From assembly GCA_015709575.1 (NCBI GenBank), contig CP054190.1:3594616-3658615 (forward strand): 64,000 bases of DNA. Reading direction: 5' to 3'. The notes under the pieces were generated by a model. The model had not been told where the DNA came from, did no database searches, and was given only the letters and a program-made list of their open reading frames with translations. A program made the translations under genes and the position numbers. Below are positions 45,845 through 52,978 of this stretch, in pieces (position 1 is the first letter of the stretch; the number at the start of each line of letters is the position of its first letter). The stretch comes from Planctomycetia bacterium (lineage in GTDB: Bacteria; Planctomycetota; Phycisphaerae; UBA1845; Fen-1342).

Positions 45845-46133
45845 GGGCAATGCCTTGTGTGCGGATCGGCGGCAGGCGGCCCGCCGGACAGACCGGAGGC
45901 TATCCCGGCCGGTCCGCGGCGTCAACGTCCGGAAAGCGGCGCAGCCATCACCAGAGCAACTCGTGAGCCGTCCGTTTCCGGACGGAGGGGCTGAATCTTG
46001 AAACTTGACGCACGCGGCGGCGCTCAATTGGACACTTCGCGTAGGACTCGATTGTGCGCCGACCGGCGCAGCGTGCCGCGACGTGGGCCAATCTGTCGGC
46101 CGGTCGCCTGGCATCGCCACAGGGGGAACCGAC

Positions 46134-49100
46134 ATGAGCCGTCCGAATGAGCCGCTGAATCCGCAGAATCCGCAGGGTGCTGAATCCGCCAACGATGCGA
46201 AGGGGCGCTCGCCGCGGAAGGGCCGCCGCGAGGCGGGTTTTCGCGTGGAGACGCTGGAGCAGCGGATCCTGATGTCGGCGACGTGGGCCGACGCGGAGAC
46301 GGGCGAGGCGCAGTCTGGCGCGAGCGACGACGCGGACGTATACAACGGCTCGAACAATGACGACGTGGCCGACGGCGGCGCGGGTAATGACATCATGAAG
46401 GGCGGGAACGGCAACGACACGCTCTTCGGGGGGGAAGGTCACGACCTGCTGGAAGGCGGCAATGGCAACGACATCCTGCACGGCGGGGACGGGCACGACC
46501 TGCTGGAAGGCGGGAACGGCAACGACATCCTGCACGGCGGGGACGGGGACGACACGCTCAAGGGCGGCAACGGCAATGACCAGCTCTTCGGCGGCGCCGG
46601 GAATGACCGACTCGAAGGCGGCAAGGGTAATGACCTGCTCGAGGGCGGGGACGGCAACGACGTGCTGAAGGGCGGCAGCGGAAACGATGAGCTGCATGGC
46701 GGCGCGGGGAACGACACGCTCGAGGGCGGCAGCGGGAATGACATTCTGCACGGCGGGTCGGGGGATGACCTGCTGAAGGGCGGCAGCGGCAACGACGAGA
46801 TGTTCGGCGGCACGGGCAACGACACGCTCTACGGCGGCAAGGGCAATGACCTGCTTGACGCCGGCGGCGGGCATGACGTGATGTACGGGGAGCAGGGGAA
46901 CGACACGTTCCGCTTCTCCAACGCCCAGGACGGCGACATTTATCGCGTTTCGGGCGGCAGCGGCACGGACACGATCGACCTGAAGGGCTACCAGAGCAGC
47001 CAGGCGGTACTGTCGCAGGGGCGAATCGACGTCACGGGGGCGGACGGAACGAGCTTCACGATCCACCACAGTGGGATCGAGAAGGTCGAGTTCGCCAATG
47101 CGTCAGTCACGCCCAGCACGCACGGCACGGATGCCGCGATGATCAATGCGGCGGCGGCACACGCGGAATCGGTGGATACGGAGCCAGGCTCCACGTCGAC
47201 CGGCTCCGGGGTGACTGACGCGAACGAGGACGCCTCCGACAACGAGTCGGCCAACGTAGCGCCGGTTGCGGACGCGGGATCGGACCAGACGGCCGACGCC
47301 GGACAAACGGTGACGCTCAGCGCATCCAACTCCTTCGACTGGGACAAGAGCGACTCGCTGACGTTTGAGTGGGTGCAGACCGGCGGGCCGGCGGTGGAAC
47401 TCTCCGACGCGCATGCGCATAGCCCGACGTTCACGGCCCCGTCGGGCGTCTCGAACACCGACGTGACGTTTGAGCTGCGCGTCAGTGATGGACAGGCAGT
47501 CAGCACGGACGTGGTCGTTGTGCACGTGAACGCGGCCGACCAGGCGCCCTCGGCCGACGCCGGGCCGGATATGCAGGTCAACGAGGGCGAGGTGGTGCAG
47601 CTCAAGGGCAGTGCCACCGATCCCGAAGGCCAGGCGCTGACGTATGAGTGGGTGCAGACCGGCGGACCTGCGGTGACGCTCTCCGACCCGCACGCGGCCA
47701 GCCCGACGTTTGAAGCGCCGAACCTTGCCGGCGATGCGCGGGTGACGTTCGAGCTGCGCGTCAGTGACGGCACGCACACCAGCATCGACACCGTCGCGGT
47801 GGATATCAGTGCCGAGTCCGAGATGCCGGTGGCCAGCGCCGGTTCCGACCTGCGCGTGTACGAAGGGCAGAGCGTCGGACTGAGCGGACTGGGCAGCAGC
47901 GACGCCGACACGGACGACACGCTCTCCTATGGCTGGAAGCAGGTCGGCGGACCGGCGGTGAACCTTGACAATCCGTCTTCGCCAACGCCGAGCTTCACCG
48001 CGCCGGATACGACCGGCCTGACGAAGCTGACCTTCGAAGTGACCGTGACCGACGCGGCCGGGAACACGCACACCGACACGGTCGAAGTGACGGTGGCCGA
48101 TCCGCAGGTCGAGGCGCAGGTGCAGGCGATGAACTACACGCAGTTCCGCCACCTCAACGGTGACCAGGCCGACTACCTGACCCCGGCGCAGATCGCGACG
48201 ATTCCCAGCAGCGACTGGTTCGCGACGATGAGCGCTGAGGCGCGCGGCTCGCTCGATGAAGCGCAGGTGCAGGCGCTCAACACCGCCAAGATCAACATCG
48301 GGCACCTGACGCCCGAGCAGCGCGAGTGGCTCACCGACCAGCAGATTCAGCAACTGCCGTATACGAACTTCCGCTACGTCCCGGCGGATCGTATTCCCGA
48401 TCTTTCCACCACGCAGATCGCCACGATTCCCAGCGGCGACTGGTTCAACACGCTCTCTGCGCAGCAGCGCGACTCGCTGACGCATGAGCAGATCCGGTCC
48501 CTGAAGCCCGGCCTGTCGGGGGTGGTCTTCAGCGGCGGAGACAATGCCGACACGCTGAACGGAAACAGCAACGTCAACCGCATCATCGGCGGCGCGGGTG
48601 ACGACGTGCTCAAGGGCGGCGCGGGCAACGACGTGCTGGAGGGCGGCGCGGGCAACGACCGGCTCGAGGGCGGAGACGGCCGCGACTGGCTGATCGGCGG
48701 CGGCGGAAACGACACGATGCTGGGCGGCGCGGGCAACGACCGCTTCTCCTTCGAGAACGCCGCGGCCGGCGATGTCTACACGGTCGATGGCGGGGCGGAT
48801 CACGACACGCTCGACCTGGCCGCGTTCAGCAGCGAGAACGTCAAGGTCGCCAACGGGCAGGTCATCGTAAAACTGCCTGACGGCGGCGAGTTCACGATCA
48901 ACCACGAAAACATCGAGACGATCCGGCTGGCCGATACGTCGCTGCTGGTCAGCTACAACGACGCGCCGCAGATCAGCGCCGGCGGCGACCAGAGCGTGAA
49001 CGAGGGCGAGGTGGTCACGCTGTCCGCCTCGGCGCAGGACGCCGATGGCGACGCGCTGACCTATGAATGGGTGCAGACCGGCGGGCCGGCCGTCAGCCTG

Positions 49101-50672
49101 TCCGACCCGCACGCCGCCAACCCCACCTTCACCGCGCCGCAGGGCACGCACGACGCCGTCATCACGTTCGAGCTGCGCGTCAGCGACGGCAAGGCCGTGT
49201 CGGTGGACAGCGTCTCGATCGCGGTCAGTGCCGAGAATGACGCGCCGACGGTCGAAATCGCCACGCCGGACGCCGTCCTGAGCGGCGGGGTTGTGAACCT
49301 CGCATCGAGCGCCTTTGACGCGGACTCGCCGGAGCTGAGCTACCAGTGGACGCAGGTCGGCGGGCCGAGCGTCGAGATGGAGAACGGCGGGCAGGCTTCG
49401 CCGAGCTTTGTGGCGCCGACGGTGAGCGAGCCGACCACGCTGCGATTTGAAGTCGCCGTCAGTGACGGGCACAACACGACCACCGAGACCATCGAGGTGC
49501 TGGTGCAGCCGCAGCCGGCGCAGCCGCCGGTCGCCGACGGTGGATCGGATGAGCCGGTTGTTGATGTGGTGAGCGATGAGCCGGTCGCCGACGGCGGATC
49601 GGATGAGCCGGTTGTTGATGTGGTGAGCGATGAGCCGGCGACGATGCCGCAGCCGCCGACCGATTCGAGCGACCCCGGTGACGGTTCGAACCCGCAGGCT
49701 GGCGATGTCGGTCCGACGACGAGCACTTCCAGCTCAGGGCATCACGCCGCGAATCCGACCACCGGTGCCGCGAATCCGACGCCCTCGAGTGCGGGTCCGG
49801 CCCCTGCCGGCGGCGGATCGCCGTCCACGACGGGAGCCGTATTCCCCACTGCGACCGCGGACGTCGGGCCGGCGAGCGCTGCGCCCACCACCAGCGGGGC
49901 AGCCCCGGCGCCGTCCACCACGAGCTTCACGCCGGCCAGCAACGGCGGATCAGCGCCGACTCCGTCCGGCGGGCTGCCGGCGACGAGCGCCACAGCACCT
50001 GATTCTGCACCGGGCGGCGCGCGGCCGTCTTCGGCCGAGTCGAACGAGGGCGGGTGGACCGGCGACGAAGACCTGCGCGTGCTGAATGCCGCGCCGACGG
50101 TCGCCGGCGTGGAAGTCCGGGATTCGGCCGCGGCGCGGGCCGAGCTGCTGCACCTCGGCGAGGAGCGGCTGGCGGCGCAGTTCCGCGAGCTGGCGGAATC
50201 GGCCGACCGCCTGGCCGACGAGGTGATGGACGTGCTTTCGCCGGTGTCGTCGGAGCCGCCGGATCGGATGGAGCTGCCGAACCTGCCGCCAGATGCGCGG
50301 CTTTCGGATGTGTTCACCGAGTCGCGTATTGGCGACGTCGAGCGCGGATTTGCGCCGGATGGGCGGGTATTGCCGCGTTCGAGCGCCGATCTGCCGCTCT
50401 CCGATGCGCGCGGGTCGGATCGCGACGATGACGGTGCGGAGCGGGAAACCCGCTCGGCGTATGCGGGACTCGGCGATCGTGCGTCGCGCGGGTCGGAGGC
50501 GGAGGGGCGCGGCCGGGGTGAAGAGGCGGATGAGCTGGCGACGGCCGGCGCGACGAGCGGGTTCTGGGCGACGCTGTGGGGGCTGGTGCGCGGCTGGACG
50601 GGCACGAGCACTTCGGCCGAGGAGTCGGCCCGGGATGCGGCCCGGCGCGAGGAGAACAATCGCCGGCGGTAG
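46134..50672 (+). CDS. Giant LEPR-XLL-type protein with RTX and PKD-like repeats
   Basis: A 1512-residue secreted protein from ATG 46134, just after AGGGGGAACC. The motif [13 protein letters not shown] at about residues 37-49 matches the LEPR-XLL N-terminal signature of exported Planctomycetes proteins. Residues about 80-245 are RTX calcium repeats of GGxGND type (nearly 20 copies). Repeats of about 95 residues with [16 protein letters not shown]... or similar (PKD/cadherin-like) occur at about 375-665 and 945-1130. Between them is a helical repeat region with [15 protein letters not shown] segments, and a second small RTX block at about 818-873. Residues about 1125-1310 are Pro/Thr/Ser/Ala-rich. 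It is probably a calcium-stabilised surface or matrix protein. The DNA of the RTX block is itself repetitive, so copy number may vary. Confidence 0.9.
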
Positions 50673-51179: not shown

Positions 51180-51860
51180 GCATGCTCACGCTGAGTACAG
51201 CGAGAGCATGCCACCCAACCGAAACAGCAACTGCACTACTCACGAGCAGTGGCACGTGCGACAGCTATGGCACATGCAGCAGCAACGGCACGTGCGAAAG
51301 CGGAGTACAAGCGACGCGAGTGCAGCGGGAAAGGATGGGCGGGTCGAGCTTTGGGCGTAGGGGGGGGGAACTCGACCCGCCCGGCATCAGGGACGCGAGA
51401 CTCGTTCACACTGGGCCCGTAACGGCCCGGAATCGCGGCGCGGACCGACGATTCCAGGCATGTCATCCATGAGCACGTTACGAGCCCAGCATCAAATTCA
51501 TGGCGTCGCGCGCGCCGGCCGTCTGGGCCGTGGCGCCGGTTTCAGCCGCCCGACGCGCGCTGACGCCGATTGTCCGAACTACACAACCGTCCAAACTACA
51601 CAACAGGCAACCAGTGGCTGAAGCCACTGGCTACGATCGATCGCCCTGCGGGCGAAGCGCCGATGAACAGCCGATCGTCGCGGGCGTGCGTTGCATGCTC
51701 ACGCTGAGTACAGCGAGAGCATGCCACCCGGACGCTCGTCGCGGCATTCCACGCAGGGCCGTGGGCGCCGTCTGCATGCTCACGCTGAGTACAGCGAGAG
51801 CATGCCACCCTGTTATCCGGTCACCCGGTTCTCCGGTTATCCGGTCACCTGGAAATCCGG
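51180..51860. repeat. Repeat cluster: three variant B hairpins, D hairpin pair, 17-bp tandem
   Basis: Variant B hairpins (GCATGCTCACGCTG/CAGCGAGAGCATGC) at 51180-51215, 51693-51728 and 51774-51809. Family D at 51611-51654 in the covarying form CCAGTGGCTGAAGCCACTGG. Near 51250 short GTGGCACGTGC-type units repeat. From about 51812 to 51866 a degenerate TCCGGTCACC/TCCGGTTAT unit repeats five times up to the ATP-cone gene end. Confidence 0.85.
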
Positions 51861-52460
51861 TCACTCTTCTCTGGCCGGCCAGCGCGAACCGACCGGCTTG
51901 CTCCACAGGACCGCTTCGACGTCGTCGCCGCTGGCGCCGCGCAGTCCCCACGACATCAATTCGTTCTCGATGACCTCGATTACCAGCGGCAGGCGCACCA
52001 CCCGAAAACCGAGGCCGAACACCCGCGATTCGACTTCGCCCGCCAACCCGCGGGCCACCGCGTGACGCACGCCGAAGCGGTTTTCCAGCAGGCCTACAAT
52101 CGCGGACTTCCGCCACGGGACCGCGCCGCGCTTCACCCTCGCGGGGTCAAACACCCGCAGGCGGTTGCGCGAGTCCGAGCGGCGACGACGGTGCGCCTCC
52201 AGCGCATCGGCCGCACCTTCGAGATTCGTACGACGCAGCACGGCGGTGACGCACTCAAACAGGTATCCGGTCGAGAGCGTGCAGGGGTCGAGCTGCTCGG
52301 CCAGGTGCATGCCGACCGCCCGCGCTAATGGACCGGCCAACTCCACCTCGCAGCCGCCCTCGGACAATCCGATGCGCAGGCAGCGCCGCAGCTTGGCTTC
52401 GCTGAAGCGCTCCGCCGCTCCGCCGTCCTTGGCGATCACTACCCGCGCCGCGTCGCTCAC
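51861..52460 (-). CDS. ATP-cone-like protein coupled to NrdR
   Basis: A 199-residue protein with GTG start at 52460, overlapping the NrdR stop by 4 bp (GTGA). Residues 5-95 fit an ATP-cone: VVIAKDGGAAERFSEAKLRRCLR, LARAVGMHLAEQLDP, LFECVTAVLRRTNLEGAADALEAHRRRR. The Lys that contacts nucleotide is kept but the canonical KRDG is KDGG. The C-terminal half (RKSAIVGLLENRFGVRHAVARGLAGEVESRVFGL) has the helical look of a second, divergent cone-like repeat, and no zinc ribbon is present. It probably senses adenine nucleotides together with NrdR. Confidence 0.75.
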   Translation of the reverse strand: MSDAARVVIAKDGGAAERFSEAKLRRCLRIGLSEGGCEVELAGPLARAVGMHLAEQLDPCTLSTGYLFECVTAVLRRTNLEGAADALEAHRRRRSDSRNRLRVFDPARVKRGAVPWRKSAIVGLLENRFGVRHAVARGLAGEVESRVFGLGFRVVRLPLVIEVIENELMSWGLRGASGDDVEAVLWSKPVGSRWPAREE

Positions 52461-52978
52461 GCCTTTGCCTCGCCGGATGACTCAGATTCGAAGAGACTCT
52501 GCTGTCCCGGGATGTCGTCGGCCGACCGCTCGATCACGTCCTGCGCCTCGTCGATGAAGTCGCCGACGTCCTCAAACTGCCGATAGACGCTGGCGAATCG
52601 CACATAGGCCACCTGGTCCACTCGCCGCAGCACCTGCGCGATTCGCTCACCGATGGACTGGCTCGATACCTCCCGCTCGAAATTCGAGACCAGGTACTCC
52701 TCGACTTCGTCCGCGATCTGCTCGATCCGCTCGGACGAGACCGGGCGCTTGTAGGCGGCGTGCCGGATGCCCTCGATCATCTTCGACCGGTCGTAGGGCA
52801 TGCGCGAGCCGTCGCGCTTGATCACCGCCAGCCGGATCGTCTCCTCGAGGCGCTCATAGGTCGTGTAGCGCCGCTGACACCTGAGGCACTCACGCCGACG
52901 CCGGATGCTCACCCCGCCGTCGCTGGCGCGGGAGTCGATCACCTTGTCGTCGTTCGCCTTGCAGTAGGGACATCGCAT
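52457..52978 (-). CDS. nrdR: Transcriptional repressor NrdR
   Basis: A 173-residue regulator from ATG 52978. The zinc ribbon is CPYC (C3, C6) and CLRC (C31, C34), with RRRRECLRCQRRYTTYER in between, the family signature. The ATP-cone follows from LAVIKRDGSRMPYDRSKMIEGIRHAAYKRPVS to AQVLRRVDQVAYVRFASVYRQF. About 20 residues more than usual are added at the C terminus. It represses ribonucleotide reductase genes when dATP is bound; none is in the window. The next gene is translationally coupled. Confidence 0.97.
   Translation of the reverse strand: MRCPYCKANDDKVIDSRASDGGVSIRRRRECLRCQRRYTTYERLEETIRLAVIKRDGSRMPYDRSKMIEGIRHAAYKRPVSSERIEQIADEVEEYLVSNFEREVSSQSIGERIAQVLRRVDQVAYVRFASVYRQFEDVGDFIDEAQDVIERSADDIPGQQSLFESESSGEAKA

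Follow-up and report, generated by a model that had tools for sequence, protein, structure and literature searches.

A tandem ATP-cone protein encoded behind nrdR in a planctomycete and its relationship to class III ribonucleotide reductase

In the window analysed here (the whole stretch of 64,000 nucleotides of a planctomycete genome) the gene of the ribonucleotide reductase repressor NrdR is followed by a second, overlapping gene on the same strand (Table 1), which raises the question of what kind of protein is made together with NrdR and on which target it might act. A preliminary description of the locus had stated that this gene starts inside the nrdR stop codon (GTGA) and that its product, hereafter the partner, has an ATP-cone-like N terminus and no zinc ribbon; it had suggested that mixed oligomers of the two could tune the response of NrdR to dATP/ATP. 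Among reductase repressors NrdR is very widespread, and the partner is a concrete candidate for a protein acting with it, of a kind that we did not find in the papers searched.

Table 1. Features of the nrdR locus, with positions in the window.
Feature	Position	Strand	Basis
nrdR, 173 aa, zinc ribbon and ATP-cone	52457-52978	-	TIGR00244 (E 8.7e-54); Zn_ribbon_NrdR and ATP-cone matches
NrdR C-terminal QQSLF (residues 159-163), Q-x-x-L-F motif	52490-52504	-	conserved through the class
GTGA, 4 bp, shared by the nrdR stop and the partner start	52457-52460	-	ORF coordinates, family comparison
Partner, 199 aa, GTG start, predicted tandem ATP-cone protein coupled to NrdR	51861-52460	-	ORF, homologues, model
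Predicted first ATP-cone of the partner (residues 4-100), site positions K11, E17, F19, K23	52161-52451	-	profiles, model, S. coelicolor NrdR alignment
Predicted second, degenerate cone of the partner (approximately residues 108-174), without KRDG hairpin	51939-52139	-	profile comparison, model

The gene pair and the ATP-cones of the partner

The last two bases of the GTG start codon of the partner are the first two of the TGA stop codon of nrdR, as had been described, and this 4-bp overlap is kept in 23 of the 25 copies of the family. Homologues of the partner were identified in 34 of the 61 relatives searched, namely in 25/27 genomes of the same family, in 9/9 of family f7 of the same order and in 0/25 of the other families of the order. 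In all 34 cases (33 located via tblastn and the last one separately) the partner homologue immediately follows nrdR and shares its strand, an adjacency that is far beyond chance. Among the genomes looked at from 13 families of the window's class nrdR is present and the partner absent, and NrdR therefore does not need the partner.

Direct searches of Pfam, NCBIfam and the PDB using the window's partner protein alone gave nothing useful, including no ATP-cone match in Pfam or NCBIfam; a GAF_PdtaS match (E 0.044) was far under the cut-off of that model and was dropped. Using the family alignment, 32 of the 33 members matched the ATP-cone model PF03477 (E up to 0.1, best 2e-15), and the family profile was matched to the solved ATP-cones of NrdB (6.5e-7), NrdD (2.7e-4), NrdA (5.9e-4) and NrdR (0.015). 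A comparison of the family alignment with the cone of NrdR by hhalign had a probability of 92.6. In the AlphaFold2 model of the partner (mean pLDDT 86.9, pTM 0.75) a hairpin and four helices at approximately residues 5-100 form the fold of an ATP-cone, for which the best structural match was 5olk (Z 13.9, rmsd 1.9, 95 residues), followed by 5im3 (Z 13.3) and the solved NrdD and NrdR cones (Z about 10-12).

The inner nucleotide of S. coelicolor NrdR is contacted by K50, R51 and E56, and the outer one by K62 (PMC9110341). K11, E17, F19 and K23 of the partner align with K50, E56, F58 and K62 of that protein, and position R12 with R51. K11, G14, E17 and F19 are present in 33/33 partner sequences, K23 in 32/33 and R12 in 23/33, and the family thus has the K, E, F and K of the nucleotide contacts with a variable R12. 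The window's partner carries D12 and G13 where most copies have R and D, which counts against a role as co-regulator of NrdR. As judged from the profiles and the model, the N-terminal half of the partner is an ATP-cone.

The C-terminal half was compared with the N-terminal half by profile, giving a probability of 92, an E-value of 6e-7 and a score of 34.3; the highest score among 60 column shuffles was 14.7, and the reversed control scored 10.1. This comparison identifies the C-terminal half as a second cone in degenerate form. The protein thus carries a complete and a degenerate cone in tandem, both of which contain invariant residues in the family alignment. The structural matches of the second domain (Z 5.7-6.0) were to unrelated helical domains, with no clear known fold listed; they were left unused, and its kinship with the first cone was taken from the sequence profiles.

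The zinc ribbon that belongs to NrdR (TIGR00244) was absent from the partner in the Pfam and NCBIfam search. The preliminary description thus held for the gene overlap, the missing zinc ribbon, the linkage to nrdR and the ATP-cone, although the profile match to the ATP-cone was obtained with the homologues and not with the window's protein alone, and the second cone and the origin described below had escaped it. Neither of the two outcomes that it had named as speaking against its reading, a lack of any ATP-cone match and a lack of conservation next to nrdR, was found.

Several known proteins resemble the partner in part. NrdR shares with it the ATP-cone with matching nucleotide-site residues, and their genes overlap, but NrdR has a zinc ribbon where the partner has a second cone. 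The ATP-cone-bearing NrdB of Leeuwenhoekiella (5olk) is likewise a case of a cone acting away from the catalytic subunit, but that cone forms one chain with the radical subunit, whereas the partner is without any enzyme domain. Pseudomonas aeruginosa NrdA (5im3) has more than one cone, as do other multiple-cone reductases, but these cones are attached to the enzyme. The inner copies in such reductases have drifted from the active form (PMC9669993). Among the open-access full texts searched we found no stand-alone cone protein beside nrdR, no NrdR with a clamp motif and no NrdD remnants of the kind described below.

Relationship to class III reductase NrdD

A search of the phylum using the partner family alignment gave matches in 277 of 392 genomes, weak cone matches included; matches with E-values of roughly 1e-4 to 1e-8 were left out of the partner count, as other cones could give them. 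Among the matches listed, profile positions 8-176, which span both halves of the partner, aligned to the N-terminus of planctomycete frames of mostly 550-1050 aa. Three of these frames (L060, L111 and L109) are whole class III reductases, NrdD, with an ATP-cone and the NRDD domain (PF13597, E 1e-127 to 3e-127). At 29 of the 80 NrdR loci of named genomes, nrdR is followed by a sequence homologous to the partner or to its first cone. In 60 further regions, 55 of the homologues have their start between -40 and +226 nt relative to the nrdR stop and one has it at +556, and the remaining four had no same-strand nrdR in the stretch viewed.

The 60 regions were sorted by motif alignment. Ten frames were intact, retaining the residues of the glycyl radical, the finger loop and the zinc site, seven had lost the glycine context only, two the glycine and the finger-loop cysteines, 31 had a shortened or diverged core, five consisted of the sensor unit alone and five ran off the contig (such frames, 22 of 154 loci, are omitted from the stage counts). 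A class I/II reductase (PF02867) was present in 30/31 genomes with a diverged core, in 2/2 lacking glycine and cysteines and in 5/5 with the sensor only, as well as in 7/10 with an intact NrdD and 3/7 lacking the glycine. The model of the NrdD activase was matched above its cut-off in 9/10 intact, 5/7 glycine-less, 3/31 diverged, 0/2 glycine- and cysteine-less and 0/5 sensor-only genomes, and all three activase-positive genomes of the diverged group hold a second NrdD elsewhere. The NRDD domain was found in 0 of the 61 relatives searched for the partner.

Across the phylum nrdR is thus followed by a whole NrdD, by one whose core has decayed or, in the window's clade, by the sensor unit alone. 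The partner is homologous to the N-terminal region of NrdD over both cones and occupies the same slot directly behind nrdR as NrdD does in other planctomycetes, but it ends after the second cone, and the catalytic core, the finger-loop cysteines, the zinc site and the glycyl radical are all absent. By these sequence comparisons the partner is the N-terminal region of NrdD kept in the place of NrdD behind nrdR. In a quick, unrooted tree of the two-cone unit (111 rows) the stand-alone forms were separated from all others by a single branch (SH-aLRT 93), and one change sufficed to explain them. Because NrdD is widespread and five genomes of the same class (families f109 and f116) have an intact NrdD behind nrdR, we infer the direction from NrdD to stand-alone sensor, and a single loss of the NrdD core followed by vertical descent would be the simplest reading. 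The locus would then be a case of an allosteric domain that outlives its enzyme, as a stand-alone gene under selection at the place where the lost enzyme was encoded, and the graded series of whole NrdD, glycine-less NrdD, eroded core and sensor only makes a non-catalytic role of the N-terminal cones testable.

A truncated enzyme gene could also be a remnant of nrdD without function, retained by chance, in keeping with the 13 families of the class that do without it in the genomes looked at. The partner gene is, however, under purifying selection (dN/dS 0.08-0.39 in 8/8 pairs, with 0.08-0.15 for NrdR), and this test largely refutes such an origin by inertia, which is also opposed by the invariant residues in both cones, the conserved overlap and the retention in nearly all genomes of the family, and which we consider highly improbable.

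Other variants were observed among the planctomycete loci. In some nrdR-linked NrdDs the loss is confined to the glycine of the glycyl radical or to its context, and these are often accompanied by an activase. Small frames of 112-172 aa ending in TRIVGYYS or TRVVGYYS plus following residues occur in 3/7 genomes with glycine-less NrdD (G174, G268 and G438) and in others; the loci of both kinds are L316-L321, L063, L064, L065, L075, L179, L183, L185, L204, L205, L209 and L234. These sequences possibly represent a class III reductase that carries its glycyl radical on a separate subunit. Frames with a single ATP-cone are located behind nrdR in two planctomycete records (L059, 4434-4850, 139 aa; L066, 1729-2172, 148 aa).

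Candidate targets of the partner

The only PF02867 gene in the window's genome encodes a class II reductase, NrdJ (class read from sequence), which had no PF03477 match; the PF03477 matches in this genome were NrdR and one weak match in an unrelated gene. The upstream regions of 25 nrdJ genes were scanned using a consensus that we take to be that of the NrdR box. Sixteen contained an NrdR-box-like pair reached by at most 1 in 100 shuffles (spacing 31 or 32 nt in 13 of them), the other nine being weak, and nrdJ is probably regulated by NrdR. Two mismatch-free copies of the palindrome CACAANATNTTGNG are present in the window's genome, one upstream of nrdJ and one inside a transporter gene. Sites with one mismatch were dropped, being no more numerous than those of a backward control pattern, and for this reason weight is given to the perfect nrdJ-upstream match alone. 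No clear second box was found at 31 or 32 nt from this nrdJ box, which counts against a role of the partner as co-regulator, and the window's own nrdR promoter had no convincing NrdR box.

NrdR acts via nucleotide-driven changes of its cone-cone oligomers (PMC9110341). Since the two are cone proteins whose genes overlap in the lineages with the partner, the partner most likely acts together with NrdR. We propose that the free-standing allosteric region of a class III reductase, whose catalytic core would have been lost in an ancestor of part of the class, stayed behind nrdR and is made together with NrdR. We infer that it most likely binds ATP/dATP and would associate with NrdR through contacts between their cones. 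As a co-regulator it would change the nucleotide level needed for NrdR to repress nrdJ, the gene of the cone-less class II reductase; a second cone protein could either raise or lower the dATP threshold. That the orphaned NrdD region now co-senses ATP/dATP with NrdR and thereby tunes nrdJ repression seems to us about evenly balanced between right and wrong.

The main rival is that the partner is a detached allosteric subunit of NrdJ, which would dock in trans and shut the enzyme off in response to dATP while NrdR handles transcription. The NrdJ of the window's genome is without an ATP-cone of its own, the module derives from a reductase in which it acts on the catalytic core, and ATP-cones can sit on another subunit such as NrdB (PMC5794259). 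Distance-matrix correlations do not favour NrdR over NrdJ as the mate of the partner and do not tell the two apart (partial r for NrdR versus NrdJ 0.46 vs 0.51 in 21 genomes, and 0.51 vs 0.41 in 14). We nevertheless regard a trans-acting NrdJ subunit as unlikely: every copy in the family and order lies beside nrdR, whereas in the neighbourhoods fetched nrdJ is on another contig or far off on the same one; families f4 and f8 share the same kind of NrdJ start and have no partner; and the module comes from NrdD, not from NrdJ.

The C-terminal tail of NrdR and other features

The C-terminus of NrdR is variable across the class except for the Q-x-x-L-F motif, which was present in 85 of 93 distinct NrdRs of the class vs 0 of 57 from other classes of the phylum, and in 9/10 named Phycisphaerae, 6/37 other named planctomycetes and 1/29 sequences of other phyla (identical sequences counted once, under the earlier-listed locus). 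The last of these (L042), from a record titled Actinomycetes, falls inside a Phycisphaerae-type clade and is probably a mislabelled bin. The eight class NrdRs without the motif belong to families f109 (2), f116 (3), f13 (2) and f15 (1). All six leucine and both phenylalanine codons are used in 89 class tails (named copies not set apart), and selection therefore acts on the protein. The NrdR model shows the tail as coil, at a pLDDT of about 65. In a quick NrdR tree built from few columns the motif changes three times and the neighbour type five times, and the class NrdRs with a sensor-only neighbour or without partner lie on one side of one marked branch.

The sliding-clamp consensus is Q-L-x-L-F and is often C-terminal (PMC4549789). 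The class tails have its Q, L and F in 85/93 cases, position 2 not being L, and DnaE of the window's genome carries QLDMF. The NrdR tail thus resembles a sliding-clamp-binding peptide, and as a hypothesis it may bind the clamp, which would suggest that dNTP control is physically coupled to the replication clamp. That it is a docking peptide for the partner was rejected, the 13 class families without partner in the genomes looked at having the tail.

The nrdR operon of this class might be read as a two-protein nucleotide sensor tied to the replication machinery, in which a clamp-binding NrdR tail was gained on about the same branch as the NrdD core was lost, the orphaned cones serve as co-sensor and the replication fork is where repression of the reductase that remains would be read out; we hold this extended reading to be rather doubtful. 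The partner might also sense nucleotides for some other target, for example replication proteins, its place in the nrdR operon serving co-expression only. Besides the tail of the class NrdRs this would be in line with the presence of Q-x-x-L-F within the last 25 residues of 5/39 mid-length NrdD-derived proteins (expected 0.0034 each), the motif being found there in 0/25 full NrdDs. It was also found in 0/59 stand-alone partners, which argues against a target of this kind, and we judge it distinctly unlikely. The eroded NrdD-derived proteins with their own C-terminal motif are L080, L139, L217, L057 and L203, and the NrdRs beside L080, L139, L217 and L057 are without it.

Two further features were observed in the window. 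Downstream of the partner a palindromic REP-like element is present in three identical 36-base copies (51181-51216, 51694-51729 and 51775-51810), and a frame of 1555 aa on the forward strand (46005-50672) is rich in GGxGxD-type repeats and appears RTX-like by eye.
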